Positions 5,834 through 45,022 of a stretch of 64,000 nucleotides of DNA are shown in pieces; the stretch's first letter is position 1; every line of letters begins with the position of its first letter. Made by a program: the position numbers and the translations under genes. The DNA comes from Clostridiaceae bacterium (lineage in GTDB: Bacteria; Bacillota; Clostridia; DSM-8532), in contig JAAYLX010000041.1 of the NCBI GenBank assembly GCA_012521705.1, positions 1 to 64,000 of the forward strand, written 5' to 3'. The notes beneath the pieces are model-generated. The model was not told the DNA's origin and did no database searches. It saw only the letters and a program-made list of their open reading frames with translations.

Positions 5834-5871
5834 AGGTTGTCTTAAGAATTTATATGAGACAGCCTTTTTTT
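5834..5871 (+). terminator. Intrinsic terminator of the phosphate transporter operon
   Basis: Stem AGGTTGTCT / AGACAGCCT (one G-U pair) followed by a run of seven T. Confidence 0.85.
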
Positions 5872-5928
5872 ATATTCTTTTTCAGGAAATAAAACTGGTC
5901 TGTATCAAGAATTAACTTTAACAGAAAA

Positions 5929-6276
5929 GTGCAAGCGGAAAAGTCTTTTACGCGTCCTCGGCTCAGGAAGTTGTTTCGTGCAAAGGCTCTGCCTATTGAA
6001 CAATCCGCAGGTGAAGGTTAAAAGTTGTTGGCGATCGGCGCTTGCTTTTATGATAGATGTTTAAGTGCAAATGGCTCTGCCTTTTGAACAATCCGCAGGC
6101 GAAGGTAAAAAGCTGTTGGCGAAATGCGAAGTTCGATTGGGGGTCCGTCGACAGGATGTCGACTGAGCGGCGCTTGCCCGGATGGCAAGTTCGCCCGCGT
6201 ACCCCAAGAGAAAGAGCATTGAGACTTACAGCTTTCCTGAGCCGAGGACGTGAAAAAAGGCAGAACTTTTGCACGT
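5929..6276. repeat. GC-rich composite inverted/direct repeat element, noncoding
   Basis: This intergenic stretch is built from repeats. A perfect 17-bp inverted repeat (5953-5969 with 6234-6250, core CCTCGGCTCAGGAA) encloses about 260 bases. Outer imperfect arms around GTGCAA (5929 on the plus strand, 6269-6274 inverted) extend the pairing. Inside are two diverged direct copies of a module of about 65 bases, 5979-6045 and 6065-6125, both containing TGAACAATCCGCAGG. The central part, 6130-6210, is far more GC-rich than its surroundings and holds small hairpins such as GTCGAC...GTCGAC and CTTGCC...GGCAAG. Short open frames exist on both strands but lack ribosome sites. It resembles a multi-copy mobile or structured element; I do not recognise a named family. 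Confidence 0.6.
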
Positions 6277-6288
6277 TTTCGAGAGTTT

Positions 6289-6325
6289 AAAAAAGGCAAA
6301 GCTTTTGTTAGTAAAAGACTTTGCC
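6289..6325 (-). terminator. Intrinsic terminator of the DUF5692 gene
   Basis: On the minus strand, stem GGCAAAG...CTTTGCC with inner AAAA/TTTT pairing, followed by six T (A6 at 6289-6294 on the plus strand). Confidence 0.75.
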
Positions 6326-6372
6326 ATTTTCCACTTTATTTTTGGTAAACCGAACTTCGGATGAAGCTATTT

Positions 6373-7350
6373 TTAAGCGCGTGCCATCGCCTTTTTGTAG
6401 TCGGCTGTGTCGGTAAATATTTCATTGGTATACGGGTTCTTCTTAAGTTTAGCTGCTCTGCGGAATACAACTATAACCAGTATGAGATTTGCAACAAACG
6501 CAAGTATGCTTATCACTGTCATAGGCACGAAATTGTTGGCATATTGTACACTCTTTACTGCAAATATGCCCTCATCCTGGAAGAGCGGGAATACCTGTGC
6601 AAACATGCACCAGATGGCCAGGGTGTGGGCGCGGTTAGCCAGCCATGCACCTTTATTCCAGAAGAATGCCGCAATTGTCGGAGCAAGGAGCAATGCGACT
6701 CCGCAGTACCATGAGTGTGTAGGCAGGCAGTTGTAGGTGTACGCGAAATTCCAGATATCATATGCTACGATATATATCCAGATCATATCAGGCCACAGCA
6801 TGTCTCTTTTGTCCCTGGAAACATATATGCCGGTCCAGCCTGTAATACCAATGATGTTGAGTATGCCGGCAAGTCCGTTTAAGACATTGTGCCATCCTCC
6901 ATAGAGCTCAACTCCTTCGGAGGAAACCCACCAGCTGTACCAGCCGTTTATGGCTGATTCGAAATCGCTGCATACAGCAATGAGTATGTTAATGGATAGA
7001 ATCGCATAAGGGAAGTAAACGAACCATCTCTGTTTGCCAACCCACCATTTGTAGCGGATAAGCATAAATCCGATACAGCCAGCCAATGCCGCGTAGAGCT
7101 TGGCATAATGGAACCAGCCATTCATGTTTGTGTAGGTTGGATTCTTTAATGCCCATTCGGCACCGTTGGCAACCCCGATAGCAATAGCTATAAAGTAAAT
7201 CGTAAGTATTGAGGGAATGACAAATAAGAAGGTAATACCTCCGATTTTTGAGCGTCTTGTAAGCTCATTGGCAATTATAAGACAGCCCAATACAAGAAAG
7301 AGACCAAACCATTGATACGGCGCATTTTCGCCATAAACCAGGAATAACAT
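6373..7350 (-). CDS. DUF5692 family multi-pass membrane protein
   Basis: A 325-aa protein with about eight to nine hydrophobic helices and an unusually high tryptophan and tyrosine content, for example NGWYSWWVSSEG, DMIWIYIVAYDIWNFAYTYNC and TGWTGIYVSRDKRDMLWPDMIW. I recognise it as DUF5692, a family without a known function. The last 25 residues are charged and cytoplasmic-looking. A GGAGGG site precedes the ATG at 7350. It has its own promoter and terminator and no operon partner, so context gives no clue beyond a membrane location. Confidence 0.75.
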   Translation of the reverse strand: MLFLVYGENAPYQWFGLFLVLGCLIIANELTRRSKIGGITFLFVIPSILTIYFIAIAIGVANGAEWALKNPTYTNMNGWFHYAKLYAALAGCIGFMLIRYKWWVGKQRWFVYFPYAILSINILIAVCSDFESAINGWYSWWVSSEGVELYGGWHNVLNGLAGILNIIGITGWTGIYVSRDKRDMLWPDMIWIYIVAYDIWNFAYTYNCLPTHSWYCGVALLLAPTIAAFFWNKGAWLANRAHTLAIWCMFAQVFPLFQDEGIFAVKSVQYANNFVPMTVISILAFVANLILVIVVFRRAAKLKKNPYTNEIFTDTADYKKAMARA

Positions 7351-7728: not shown

Positions 7729-10146
7729 ATGTTAAAAATCAAACAAAGGGCACTTGGAATTATTGTATGCATCGCTATAATTGTAGGACAAGTATCTGCA
7801 TTTGCTTTGACCCCTGTCCGGGAATATGTGACAAGAGAGCAGGCTGTTGCCTTAATTCTTGATGCTGTTGGTTTGGGTGCTCTCAATGAAACACCTGATG
7901 ACTTAAGCCGTTTTTCTGACGCGAACGAGGTAAGCCCGGAATATGTAAAATCAGTCGGGATAGCAGTTTCAAACGGAATACTTGCCGGAGCAAACGGAAA
8001 TCTTTTGCCCAAACAGGATGTAACCCGACTGGAATTTGCCATGTTATTAAGCAGGTCAATCCGTGAACTTCCCGACTTGTACGATACACAGCAATACTCC
8101 GATGTTCCTGAGGCCGCTTTTGGAGATGTTAAAAGACTTGCAGGCGCGGGTCTTATGTTTGGTTACGGAGACGGAACATTTGGCATAAATGACTATTTGA
8201 CGGTATCACAACTTGAAGCGATTTTAGGGCGGGTAAAGAATCTGTCTTCAGTAAGACCCCAGGATGATTTTTACTATGCGCTTAATTATGACTGGCTTAC
8301 CAATACAAAATTGCCCTCGGGTTATCCGGGAATGACGTCATTTGATGATGCAGGTCTAAGCAATAATGAGAAGCTTAAGGCCATTGTAAAGGAAGTAACA
8401 GACAAGACCGGTTCCTGGCGTAAAGGGAGTAAAGAACAAAAATTAGCTGATTTTTATAGCACCATAGTTGACACAGAAAGCAGAAACAAGCAAGGTATTG
8501 AACCAATAAAACCTTATCTTGACAGAATAGAACAGGTGGACTCCGCTCAAAAGATGTTGTCACTCTTTGCAGACTTTGAGAATGAGATAGGAGTTAATCC
8601 TTTGTTTGGCTTTTCGCCAAGTGTGGATTTGAAGGACAGCAACCGGTACAGCCTTTACGGTTCGGGTATTTCACCGATTCTGCCAGCATCGTATCTTAAT
8701 ATGGACAATCTTCAGATAAATATGCTCTATGAATCTTTTATCGCCCAGTTGTTCATGTTGACCGGTGACAGCCAGGAAGTTTCTCAGGAAAAAGCGAAAA
8801 ACATCCTCGCCTTGGAGAAACTTTTGGCTCAGAATTCCATGACAAATGAGGAGAGCAGTAAAGTTGAGAATATTTATAACCCATATACCGTTGACCAGTT
8901 GGCGGATATGTTCCCGAATGTTGATTTAAATGCATATATGAAGGAATTGGGTTACAAAGACGTTAAAAGTGTTATTGTCGTTGATCCTAAGCTCATGCAA
9001 AAAACCGGGGAACTGGTATCCGACGAGAATCTGGATATTTTAAAGACCTATGCCATCTACCGGATTGTAATAAGTACAGCAAGCTATTTGTCCAAGGATC
9101 TTGAAAACGCCCTGACTGCGTTTAACAGCACTTTCCTTGGCATAAGCGGCTCATTAAGCGAAGAAGATATTGCCTTTAACCTTTTGAACTCGGTGATGGG
9201 CAGCTACCTTGGCAGAATTTATATTGAAAAATATTTCACTGAAAGCGCCAGGGAGGATGTAACAGACATTGTAAAAGAAATTATTTCAACCTATGAAAAA
9301 CGTATTCAGAAGCTTGACTGGATGAGTGAGACCACCAAAAAGACTGCTATATCAAAACTTAAGGCCTTAAAACTAAAGATAGGTTATCCTGATACCTGGG
9401 AGGATCCTCTCAAAAATATTGAAATCAGGTCCTATGAAGATAATGGATCGCTTCTTGGAAACATTTTCGCCATTACCAGGGCACAGACACAGGAAGCGAA
9501 GAGACTGCTCAGTAAAAAAGTGGATAAAGACTCATGGATTGTTCCGCCACATACCGTAAATGCATTTTATAACTCCACAAGCAATGAGATTATTTTCCCT
9601 GCAGGTATTCTCCAGGCGCCCTTCTATGATGAGAACGCATCAAGGGAGCAGAATTTGGGAGGTATAGGAACTATTATCGCCCACGAGATTACTCATGCAT
9701 TTGACAATAACGGAGCACAGTTCGATAAAAACGGGAATATGGTAAACTGGTGGACCAATGAAGATTATGCCGCTTTCAGGAGAAAATGCACGGATGTTAT
9801 AAATCTGTTTGACGGACTTGAAATAGCTCCGGGATGTATTGTCAGCGGTGAGCTTACCGTATCTGAGAATATAGCTGATATCGGTGCCATGGCATGCATC
9901 CTCGAGATAGCAGGACAAATGCCTGACGCTAATTATGAAGAGCTTTTTGAAAGCTACGCAAGGATATGGCGTTTTACAGGAACAAATCAGATTTATAAGC
10001 TTTTGACATTACAGGACGTGCATGCGCCCAACAAATTCAGGGTAAATCAGGTTTTGAGGAATTTCAAAGAATTCTATGAAACTTACGGTATTCAGCCTGA
10101 AGACAGGATGTATCTGTCCCCGGAAGAAAGAGTTACAGTCTGGTAA
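7729..10146 (+). CDS. Exported SLH-domain M13 (neprilysin/PepO-type) zinc metallopeptidase
   Basis: An 805-aa protein with a signal peptide (about residues 1-26), two to three S-layer homology-like segments (about 30-170, e.g. YVTREQAVALILDAVGL and LFGYGDGTFGINDYL-type text), then an M13 peptidase from about residue 175. Catalytic features are complete: HEITH (652-656), ENIAD (713-717, third zinc ligand) and the family C-terminal ending NKFRVNQVLRNFKEFYETYGI...DRMYL...VW. It should cut peptides outside the cell while held in the wall layer. The gene has a GAGAAAGGGG site and is followed by a strong terminator, so it is monocistronic. M13 enzymes with SLH anchors are less common than lipoprotein or soluble ones. 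Confidence 0.9.
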   Translation: MLKIKQRALGIIVCIAIIVGQVSAFALTPVREYVTREQAVALILDAVGLGALNETPDDLSRFSDANEVSPEYVKSVGIAVSNGILAGANGNLLPKQDVTRLEFAMLLSRSIRELPDLYDTQQYSDVPEAAFGDVKRLAGAGLMFGYGDGTFGINDYLTVSQLEAILGRVKNLSSVRPQDDFYYALNYDWLTNTKLPSGYPGMTSFDDAGLSNNEKLKAIVKEVTDKTGSWRKGSKEQKLADFYSTIVDTESRNKQGIEPIKPYLDRIEQVDSAQKMLSLFADFENEIGVNPLFGFSPSVDLKDSNRYSLYGSGISPILPASYLNMDNLQINMLYESFIAQLFMLTGDSQEVSQEKAKNILALEKLLAQNSMTNEESSKVENIYNPYTVDQLADMFPNVDLNAYMKELGYKDVKSVIVVDPKLMQKTGELVSDENLDILKTYAIYRIVISTASYLSKDLENALTAFNSTFLGISGSLSEEDIAFNLLNSVMGSYLGRIYIEKYFTESAREDVTDIVKEIISTYEKRIQKLDWMSETTKKTAISKLKALKLKIGYPDTWEDPLKNIEIRSYEDNGSLLGNIFAITRAQTQEAKRLLSKKVDKDSWIVPPHTVNAFYNSTSNEIIFPAGILQAPFYDENASREQNLGGIGTIIAHEITHAFDNNGAQFDKNGNMVNWWTNEDYAAFRRKCTDVINLFDGLEIAPGCIVSGELTVSENIADIGAMACILEIAGQMPDANYEELFESYARIWRFTGTNQIYKLLTLQDVHAPNKFRVNQVLRNFKEFYETYGIQPEDRMYLSPEERVTVW

Positions 10147-17860: not shown

Positions 17861-17889
17861 AAATCTGTCTTTTAAATTATATGTAAAGG

Positions 17890-18121
17890 CATTGAAGGGG
17901 ACATGCAAAATCTCCACGAGCGCCAAGAGAGGAAATGGCCATGGGCTGGAAGCCATTACCGCGTATCAGGATTTTGAACCACCCCGGAGCCTGAAGGCTG
18001 AAACCAAGTAAGCTTTCACGTTGATTACGTTATAATCCCATTGAGTGACAGGCTTTGCCTGTAATCAAGGTGGAACCGTGTGAGTATCAACTCTCATCCT
18101 TGAATGGATGGGAGTTTTTTG
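17890..18121 (+). promoter_or_regulatory. T-box leader, threonine-specific
   Basis: The T-box sequence AAGGTGGAACCGTG is at 18067-18080, followed by a terminator (stem ACTCTCATCC / GGATGGGAGT, then T7, 18090-18120). In Stem I, GGGG (17897-17900) pairs with CCCC (17982-17985), and 17906-17912 (CAAAATC) with 17970-17976 (GATTTTG). The internal loop between these helices carries ACC at 17978-17980, a Thr codon followed by A, as expected for the specifier. A distal hairpin AATGGC/GCCATT completes the stem. Uncharged tRNA-Thr binding would block the terminator and switch on thrS. Confidence 0.92.
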
Positions 18122-44791: not shown

Positions 44792-44849
44792 TATTTTAAA
44801 TTTCTACCGAACTGACGAACTAACAGAACTGAATACTGTTTTCGGATGA

Positions 44850-45022
44850 CGGCTAAGGGAGAGCTGCTGAAATAAGCACACCGAAGGAGCAAATCTCTCA
44901 GGTAAACAGACCTTAGTCTGACGAACCTCTGGAGAGACCTTAAAAAGGCGCCGAAGGGGCAAATCCTGCATGGATGGCATATCCTGTAAGGATGATCTCT
45001 CAGGCAAAAGGACAGAGTGAAT
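44850..45022 (+). promoter_or_regulatory. Tandem glycine riboswitch (gcvT type)
   Basis: Two aptamers in a row. The first (about 44850-44945) has GGGAGAG, CACCGAAGGAGCAA and CTCTCAGGTAAA, with CTGGAGAGA near its end. The second (about 44946-45022) has GCGCCGAAGGGGCAA and CTCTCAGGCAAAAGGACAGAG. These are the conserved glycine aptamer blocks. A terminator follows and then serA, so high glycine probably stops serine/glycine synthesis. Confidence 0.92.

Follow-up and report, generated by a model that had tools for sequence, protein, structure and literature searches.

A dispersed repeat of ~210 bp, one complete copy of which lies in the window (the whole 64,000-nt stretch of Clostridiaceae DNA analyzed here), carries a conserved structured RNA on its plus strand. 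Covariance models show this RNA to be a divergent, previously unrecognized branch of the superfamily of TwoAYGGAY, which has been an orphan RNA since 2010. The first-pass annotation of the locus had offered a choice between a small non-autonomous mobile element and a large structured RNA; both halves hold together, with a dispersed repeat bounded by terminal inverted repeats enclosing a covarying RNA interior. Superfamily members are also shown to have transposed in at least one genome, and the paired GGA loops of the RNA point to the regulator CsrA as a candidate partner.

The repeat unit and its copies

The annotation had delimited a single unit at 5929-6276 of the window. Several components were read correctly: the perfect 17-bp inverted repeat (CGTCCTCGGCTCAGGAA, 5953-5969; TTCCTGAGCCGAGGACG, 6234-6250) is present and extends in a repeat search to 5946-5969/6234-6257 (24 nt, 92%), the outer arms GTGCAA (5929-5934) and TTGCAC (6269-6274) are in place, and a direct module does occur in two copies (5982-6034 and 6070-6122, 91% identity), its length being 53 nt rather than the ~65 nt proposed. 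The span itself, however, is a composite. The actual repeating unit is the complete element of Table 1, and the upstream part (5929-6062) combines a right end in inverted orientation with a copy that is truncated, so that the 17-bp pair joins pieces of two copies.

Table 1. Features of the repeat locus in window coordinates
Feature	Position	Strand	Basis and details
Complete repeat element, ~210 bp	6065-6274	+	Aligned with 18 other full copies of the own genome
Left terminal inverted repeat, 20 bp, GTGCAAATGGCTCTGCCTTT	6065-6084	+	Pairs with 6255-6274
Right terminal inverted repeat, 20 bp, AAAAGGCAGAACTTTTGCAC	6255-6274	-	Partner of 6065-6084
Structured RNA core: bulged rod, tandem G.A internal loops, three-way junction head	6086-6253	+	RNAalifold consensus, own-genome copies
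RNA head: closing stem 6137-6142/6202-6207 and two hairpins	6137-6207	+	Consensus structure columns 74-144
Hairpin 1, GUCGAC-AGGAU-GUCGAC, GGA at 6154	6147-6163	+	Loop GGA in 36/38 aligned copies
Hairpin 2, CUUGCC-CGGAU-GGCAAG, GGA at 6180	6173-6189	+	Loop GGA in 38/38 aligned copies
Truncated second copy, left part, internal deletion past 6034	5978-6062	+	91% identity to 6065-6122 over 53-58 nt
Right-end module, inverted	5929-5969	-	92% complementary to 6234-6257

BLAST against the 2.25-Mb own genome, a check that the annotation had suggested, returned about 20 full or near full-length copies (E 1e-41 to 1e-107) together with dozens of fragments, the copies being at most 95% identical to one another. 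In the alignment of 19 full copies the mean column identity is 88%, and the complete element of the window scores 187.5 bits with R1, a covariance model of the RNA core, and 159 bits with R3, a bridging model between this branch and the Rfam family of TwoAYGGAY (RF01731). Two types of terminal repeat, GTGCAAAGGCTCTGCCTTT and GTGCAAGTGGCACAGTCTTT, switch jointly at both ends among these copies (permutation p<0.0005). Right-end modules of ~47 bp, inverted or tandem, and left-half relics lie beside many other own-genome copies. The annotation had named a single copy lacking homologs and covariation, or a conserved protein frame, as outcomes that would speak against it; the repeat is multi-copy, and no reading frame is open throughout all copies, which rules out a conserved protein. 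With its small size, 20-bp terminal inverted repeats and lack of a conserved protein, the repeat resembles a MITE in these respects.

The own-genome copies favor gene 3' ends (28/42 flanking gene ends, p 0.04), and some sit between convergent genes. Immediately to the left of several copies (L009, L010, L013, L014 and L021) lie decayed short forms, or hairpins that end in terminator-like T-runs, as if elements pile up beside terminators. In the window, the element sits past the apparent terminator of the upstream gene, a terminator-like hairpin read by eye at 5836-5876 (GGTTGTCTTAA..GAGACAGCCTTTTTTT); this hairpin resembles the outer ends of the elements in another species (G007, GGGCTGTCTCAAAA..TTTTGAGACAGCCC) and could be a relic or an insertion target that the two have in common. 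A second terminator-like hairpin, likewise read by eye (6289-6330, GGCAAAGCTTTTGTTAGTAAAAGACTTTGCC), with an A-run and a T-run on opposite sides, probably serves the minus-strand gene at 6373-7350. In a consensus scan no promoter stands out at the window element, and neither an intrinsic terminator nor a promoter inside it is supported; the right end has no directly adjoining U-tract in most copies. Elsewhere in the window, a T-box leader (17883-18104, plus strand, 103 bits) and a glycine riboswitch aptamer (44846-44923, plus strand, 60 bits) were detected, and an 805-aa ORF (7729-10146) appears by eye to join an S-layer-homology region to an M13-type metallopeptidase (HEITHAFD motif).

RNA fold and relation to TwoAYGGAY

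The sequence folds with a minimum energy 4.8 SD below shuffles on the plus strand and 5.4 SD below on the minus strand. Covariation among aligned copies, which the annotation had also proposed to examine, is strong and above shuffles. The RNAalifold consensus of the own-genome copies comprises 63 pairs, 15 of them with both sides changed, and 96% of cells are paired; double-change cells number 56 versus 19.6 in shuffled alignments, and the covariation exceeds that of every shuffle. On the tree of these copies, 18 compensatory double events are counted, compared with a mean of 1.3 and a maximum of 5 when the 3' columns are randomly re-paired. When all 38 copies from seven species are considered, the tree carries 70 compensatory events (mean 4.6 for re-paired columns), double changes occur in 40/56 pairs, and the covariation score is 0.507 versus 0.178 for shuffled and at most 0.078 for slid alignments. 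In addition, a structure prediction from 18 foreign copies alone independently found the identical architecture.

The details of the fold are conserved as well. Both GGA loops are kept in the 38-copy alignment while compensatory changes rewrite the stems of their hairpins, and the two GGA motifs are 26 nt apart in the window copy. The internal loops of the rod contain tandem G.A steps (GGC-GA-AAUGC / GCAUU-GA-GCC and UC-GA-UUGGGG / CCCCAA-GA-GA), which are nearly invariant at columns 58-59/158-159 and 72-73/145-146 of alignment A1. Conservation reaches 91% in the interior versus 62-77% at the ends. G.U pairs far outnumber A.C combinations (76 versus 16 cells), and selection therefore acts on the plus strand as RNA.

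With regard to classification, no Rfam family reaches threshold inside the element. The RF01731 model assigns the window copy 19.7 bits (E 2.5), far below its gathering cut-off of 43 bits, and with a limit of E 10 it matches none of 12 loci from this branch. The connection emerges from models built in the opposite direction. R2, a covariance model built from this branch only, was applied to 391 genomes of the class, and its single match outside the taxonomic family (G313) is recognized as RF01731 by the Rfam model itself (51.9 bits against a cut-off of 43). R2 recovers RF01731 members at 49.3 and 43.2 bits, the latter being a member within the same taxonomic family (L196) that scores 50.4 bits with RF01731. 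Furthermore, the bridging model R3 yields 24 matches in RF01731 loci left out of training (best E 3e-19). The two groups, joined by R2 and R3 in this taxonomic family and in distant ones, share a closing stem that bears two neighboring GGA-loop hairpins, tandem G.A steps in the rod below, a length of ~170 nt and a multi-copy occurrence in Clostridia; tandem GAs in the supporting stem have been reported for TwoAYGGAY (PMC4333381) and are present in this branch. They differ in sequence throughout and in their paired GGA loops, which are C[ANGGAN]G hexaloops in RF01731 and C[(A/C)GGAY]G pentaloops, one base shorter, here. Because RF01731 is blind to the branch and a one-base difference separates the loops, the repeat RNA is best described as a divergent branch of the superfamily rather than a member of RF01731, and the covariance models thereby replace the "unknown family" of the first-pass annotation. 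Rfam classes RF01731 as "Cis-reg". Beside one TwoAYGGAY copy, a CRISPR repeat array was observed (L183:1883-2798, minus strand).

The annotation had also supposed that the repeat recurs in related genomes. This is borne out by structure search but hardly by sequence, for which one other species alone was matched: in species without any BLAST match, R1 finds relatives at E 1e-10 to 1e-16. R1 scores in 8/32 genomes of the taxonomic family, from two genera, with at most 15 copies outside the own genome, a maximum that R2 raises to 19; most close relatives have no copy at all, and the species distribution is patchy. Exact-pattern scanning of a genome-contig collection gave no match to the own-branch motif and 48 stretches for a foreign-branch motif, nearly all from Clostridiaceae or Bacillota MAGs. 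In viral contigs, a 19-base pattern has 12 exact matches and the second motif none.

Mobility and competing explanations

Direct evidence of transposition comes from the complete genome G068, in which six RF01731 copies show near identity across ~280 bp, with ends CTGYRATTCGTAATAT and ATATTACGAATYGCAG. Outside these ends, at equal offsets, four of the six copies are flanked by exact direct repeats (GTACATAAAA, ATCATATAA, ATCCATAA and AGTTTTGCAT). These are target-site duplications of ~8-10 bp, and TwoAYGGAY therefore sits inside transposed elements in this genome. Mobility is thus seen in a relative only and not for the own-genome copies, at whose ends no target duplication is visible; nor were consistent duplications found in G007, G046/G047, G226, G382, G243, G362, G137 or G203. 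A search of the own genome for inward terminal-repeat pairs 0.8-3 kb apart, with at most one mismatch, gave no hit, an absence that is weak evidence since the assembly consists of 59 contigs. Given the limited identity between copies, the lack of target duplications and the lack of a longer transposon with the same ends, mobility of the own-genome copies is inferred from relatives and from dispersal.

The outer ends vary by species: GTGCAAAGGC.. occurs here and the type noted above for G007 also in G011, while copies in G046 and G047 are bordered by TGTCATTGCGAG..-type repeats. Elements of different species thus enclose the same interior in outer ends that are unrelated. In the flanks of G046/G047 loci (L095, L097, L102, L108, L110 and L117), the RNA was observed inside a TGTCATTGCGAG..GCAATCTC palindromic repeat, which is a second dispersed repeat. 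Like bacterial MITEs and intergenic repeats of the RU/ERIC, BOX and REPIN types, the elements are short and non-coding, have inverted terminal repeats, and are present in tens of intergenic, modular and nested copies. They differ in that no transposase or autonomous partner was found, that target duplications were seen in G068 only, and that a conserved RNA fold forms the shared interior of elements with unrelated ends.

The repeat could be no more than a MITE: a selfish DNA transposon, non-autonomous, with a whole-length hairpin that is relevant only as DNA, in a single-stranded intermediate or for transposase recognition, and with a functionless RNA. The terminal inverted repeats, the dispersal and patchy species distribution, the target duplications of G068, the nested and tandem end modules, and the bias toward gene 3' ends, which is expected from selection against promoter hits, all suit this account. 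It is nevertheless regarded as rather unlikely, given an interior better conserved than the ends, two nearly invariant GGA loops, the same interior within unrelated ends, and an excess of G.U over A.C that is stronger than expected from pairing at the DNA level.

Alternatively, the structured RNA might serve another partner, such as a different GGA-loop-binding protein or the ribosome, or act as a 3' end stabilizer or bidirectional terminator. Positions at the 3' side of genes or between convergent ones, the rod with its tandem G.A loops, and a loop unlike the canonical CsrA hexaloop would be in keeping with such roles, whereas a terminator sits poorly with the missing U-tracts, with the separate terminator-like hairpins already beside both genes in the window, and with conserved GGA loops that it does not need; this group of explanations is considered improbable.

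The origin of the pairing itself may be asked of the five copies in G226 (L221-L225), whose basal stems share 33% identity between copies while each is closely self-paired (-59 kcal/mol with its own partner versus -24 with mismatched partners). Since each of these stems pairs with its own partner, pairing persists even after sequence replacement, which reflects either strong RNA selection or palindrome-making replication. That pairing is kept up merely mechanically, by quasi-palindrome correction in which template switching copies one arm to the other and creates covariation without selection, would accommodate these wholesale-replaced yet nearly perfectly paired stems and the joint switch of terminal-repeat types, but it is highly implausible, as it leaves unexplained the G.U excess, the conserved asymmetric loops, the G.A bulges, and the compensatory changes in small apical hairpins with fixed loops.

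Candidate CsrA sites and their implications

The reading favored here, with modest confidence, is that of a dispersed element bounded by inverted repeats whose structured-RNA payload presents CsrA-type hairpins and would thereby act on CsrA as a decoy or serve as a target tethered to it. Paired GGA motifs in hairpin loops are a hallmark of CsrA sites, and the repeat possesses such a pair. Some of the RF01731 loops match the CsrA SELEX consensus RUACARGGAUGU (PMC7652899), and RMfam motif matches have predicted CsrA binding for TwoAYGGAY (PMC4333381); in a literature search, TwoAYGGAY was tied to CsrA as a prediction only, and no paper linking it to mobile elements was found.

The own genome contains a flgL-fliW-csrA operon. 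In flagellin leaders of these Clostridia (L248-L255), a GGA-loop hairpin is followed by a GGA-containing Shine-Dalgarno sequence, an arrangement known from Bacillus subtilis. Judged from these sequences, a CsrA-FliW-flagellin control circuit is likely to operate in these Clostridia. CsrA is present in 37/43 carriers of either RNA branch versus 88/348 other genomes (p 8e-15); six carriers have no detected CsrA, three of which are <90% complete. Every genome with CsrA also has flagellin, which is found in 40/43 RNA carriers, and when flagellin-containing genomes alone are compared, the association between RNA and CsrA disappears (p 0.40). The co-occurrence therefore fits CsrA and a motile lifestyle equally, and after this flagellin control it was dropped as proof of CsrA function.

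On the favored CsrA reading, the element would have spread by non-autonomous transposition, with a transposase supplied in trans, and its transcripts would most likely arise where transcription reads through into the intergenic region. Each transcribed RNA could then present its paired CsrA-type hairpins, at the spacing described above, to one CsrA dimer, and the copies might jointly imitate the GGA hairpin of the flagellin leader, either as decoys that draw CsrA away or as its tethered targets. Such a role would resemble that of the sponge RNAs CsrB, RsmY and RsmZ, which offer CsrA whole arrays of GGA-loop hairpins; the counterpart here would be ~20 copies of two hairpins each. The sRNAs of the CsrB type, known from Gammaproteobacteria (PMC4333381), carry their many hairpins within a single gene, whereas the candidate sites here are spread over dispersed two-hairpin elements. 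A more far-reaching proposal, put forward tentatively and as possible rather than probable, is that of a mobile CsrA sponge: transposable protein-free elements, with TwoAYGGAY as payload, would spread candidate CsrA-binding hairpins, and their copy number would help to set CsrA activity, flagellin synthesis and lifestyle.

TwoAYGGAY and its unrecognized branch are now tied to dispersed inverted-repeat elements that have clearly transposed in one genome, and the covariation, along with the copy-level evidence, indicates selection on the paired GGA hairpins at the RNA level. The automatic cis-regulatory annotation of TwoAYGGAY-type RNAs may consequently be wrong for many copies. If CsrA binds them, the repeats would be dispersed, and in relatives transposed, decoys of a global regulator, which suggests that such decoys can spread in the fashion of mobile elements; the idea of a CsrA sponge in Gram-positive bacteria thereby becomes directly testable.
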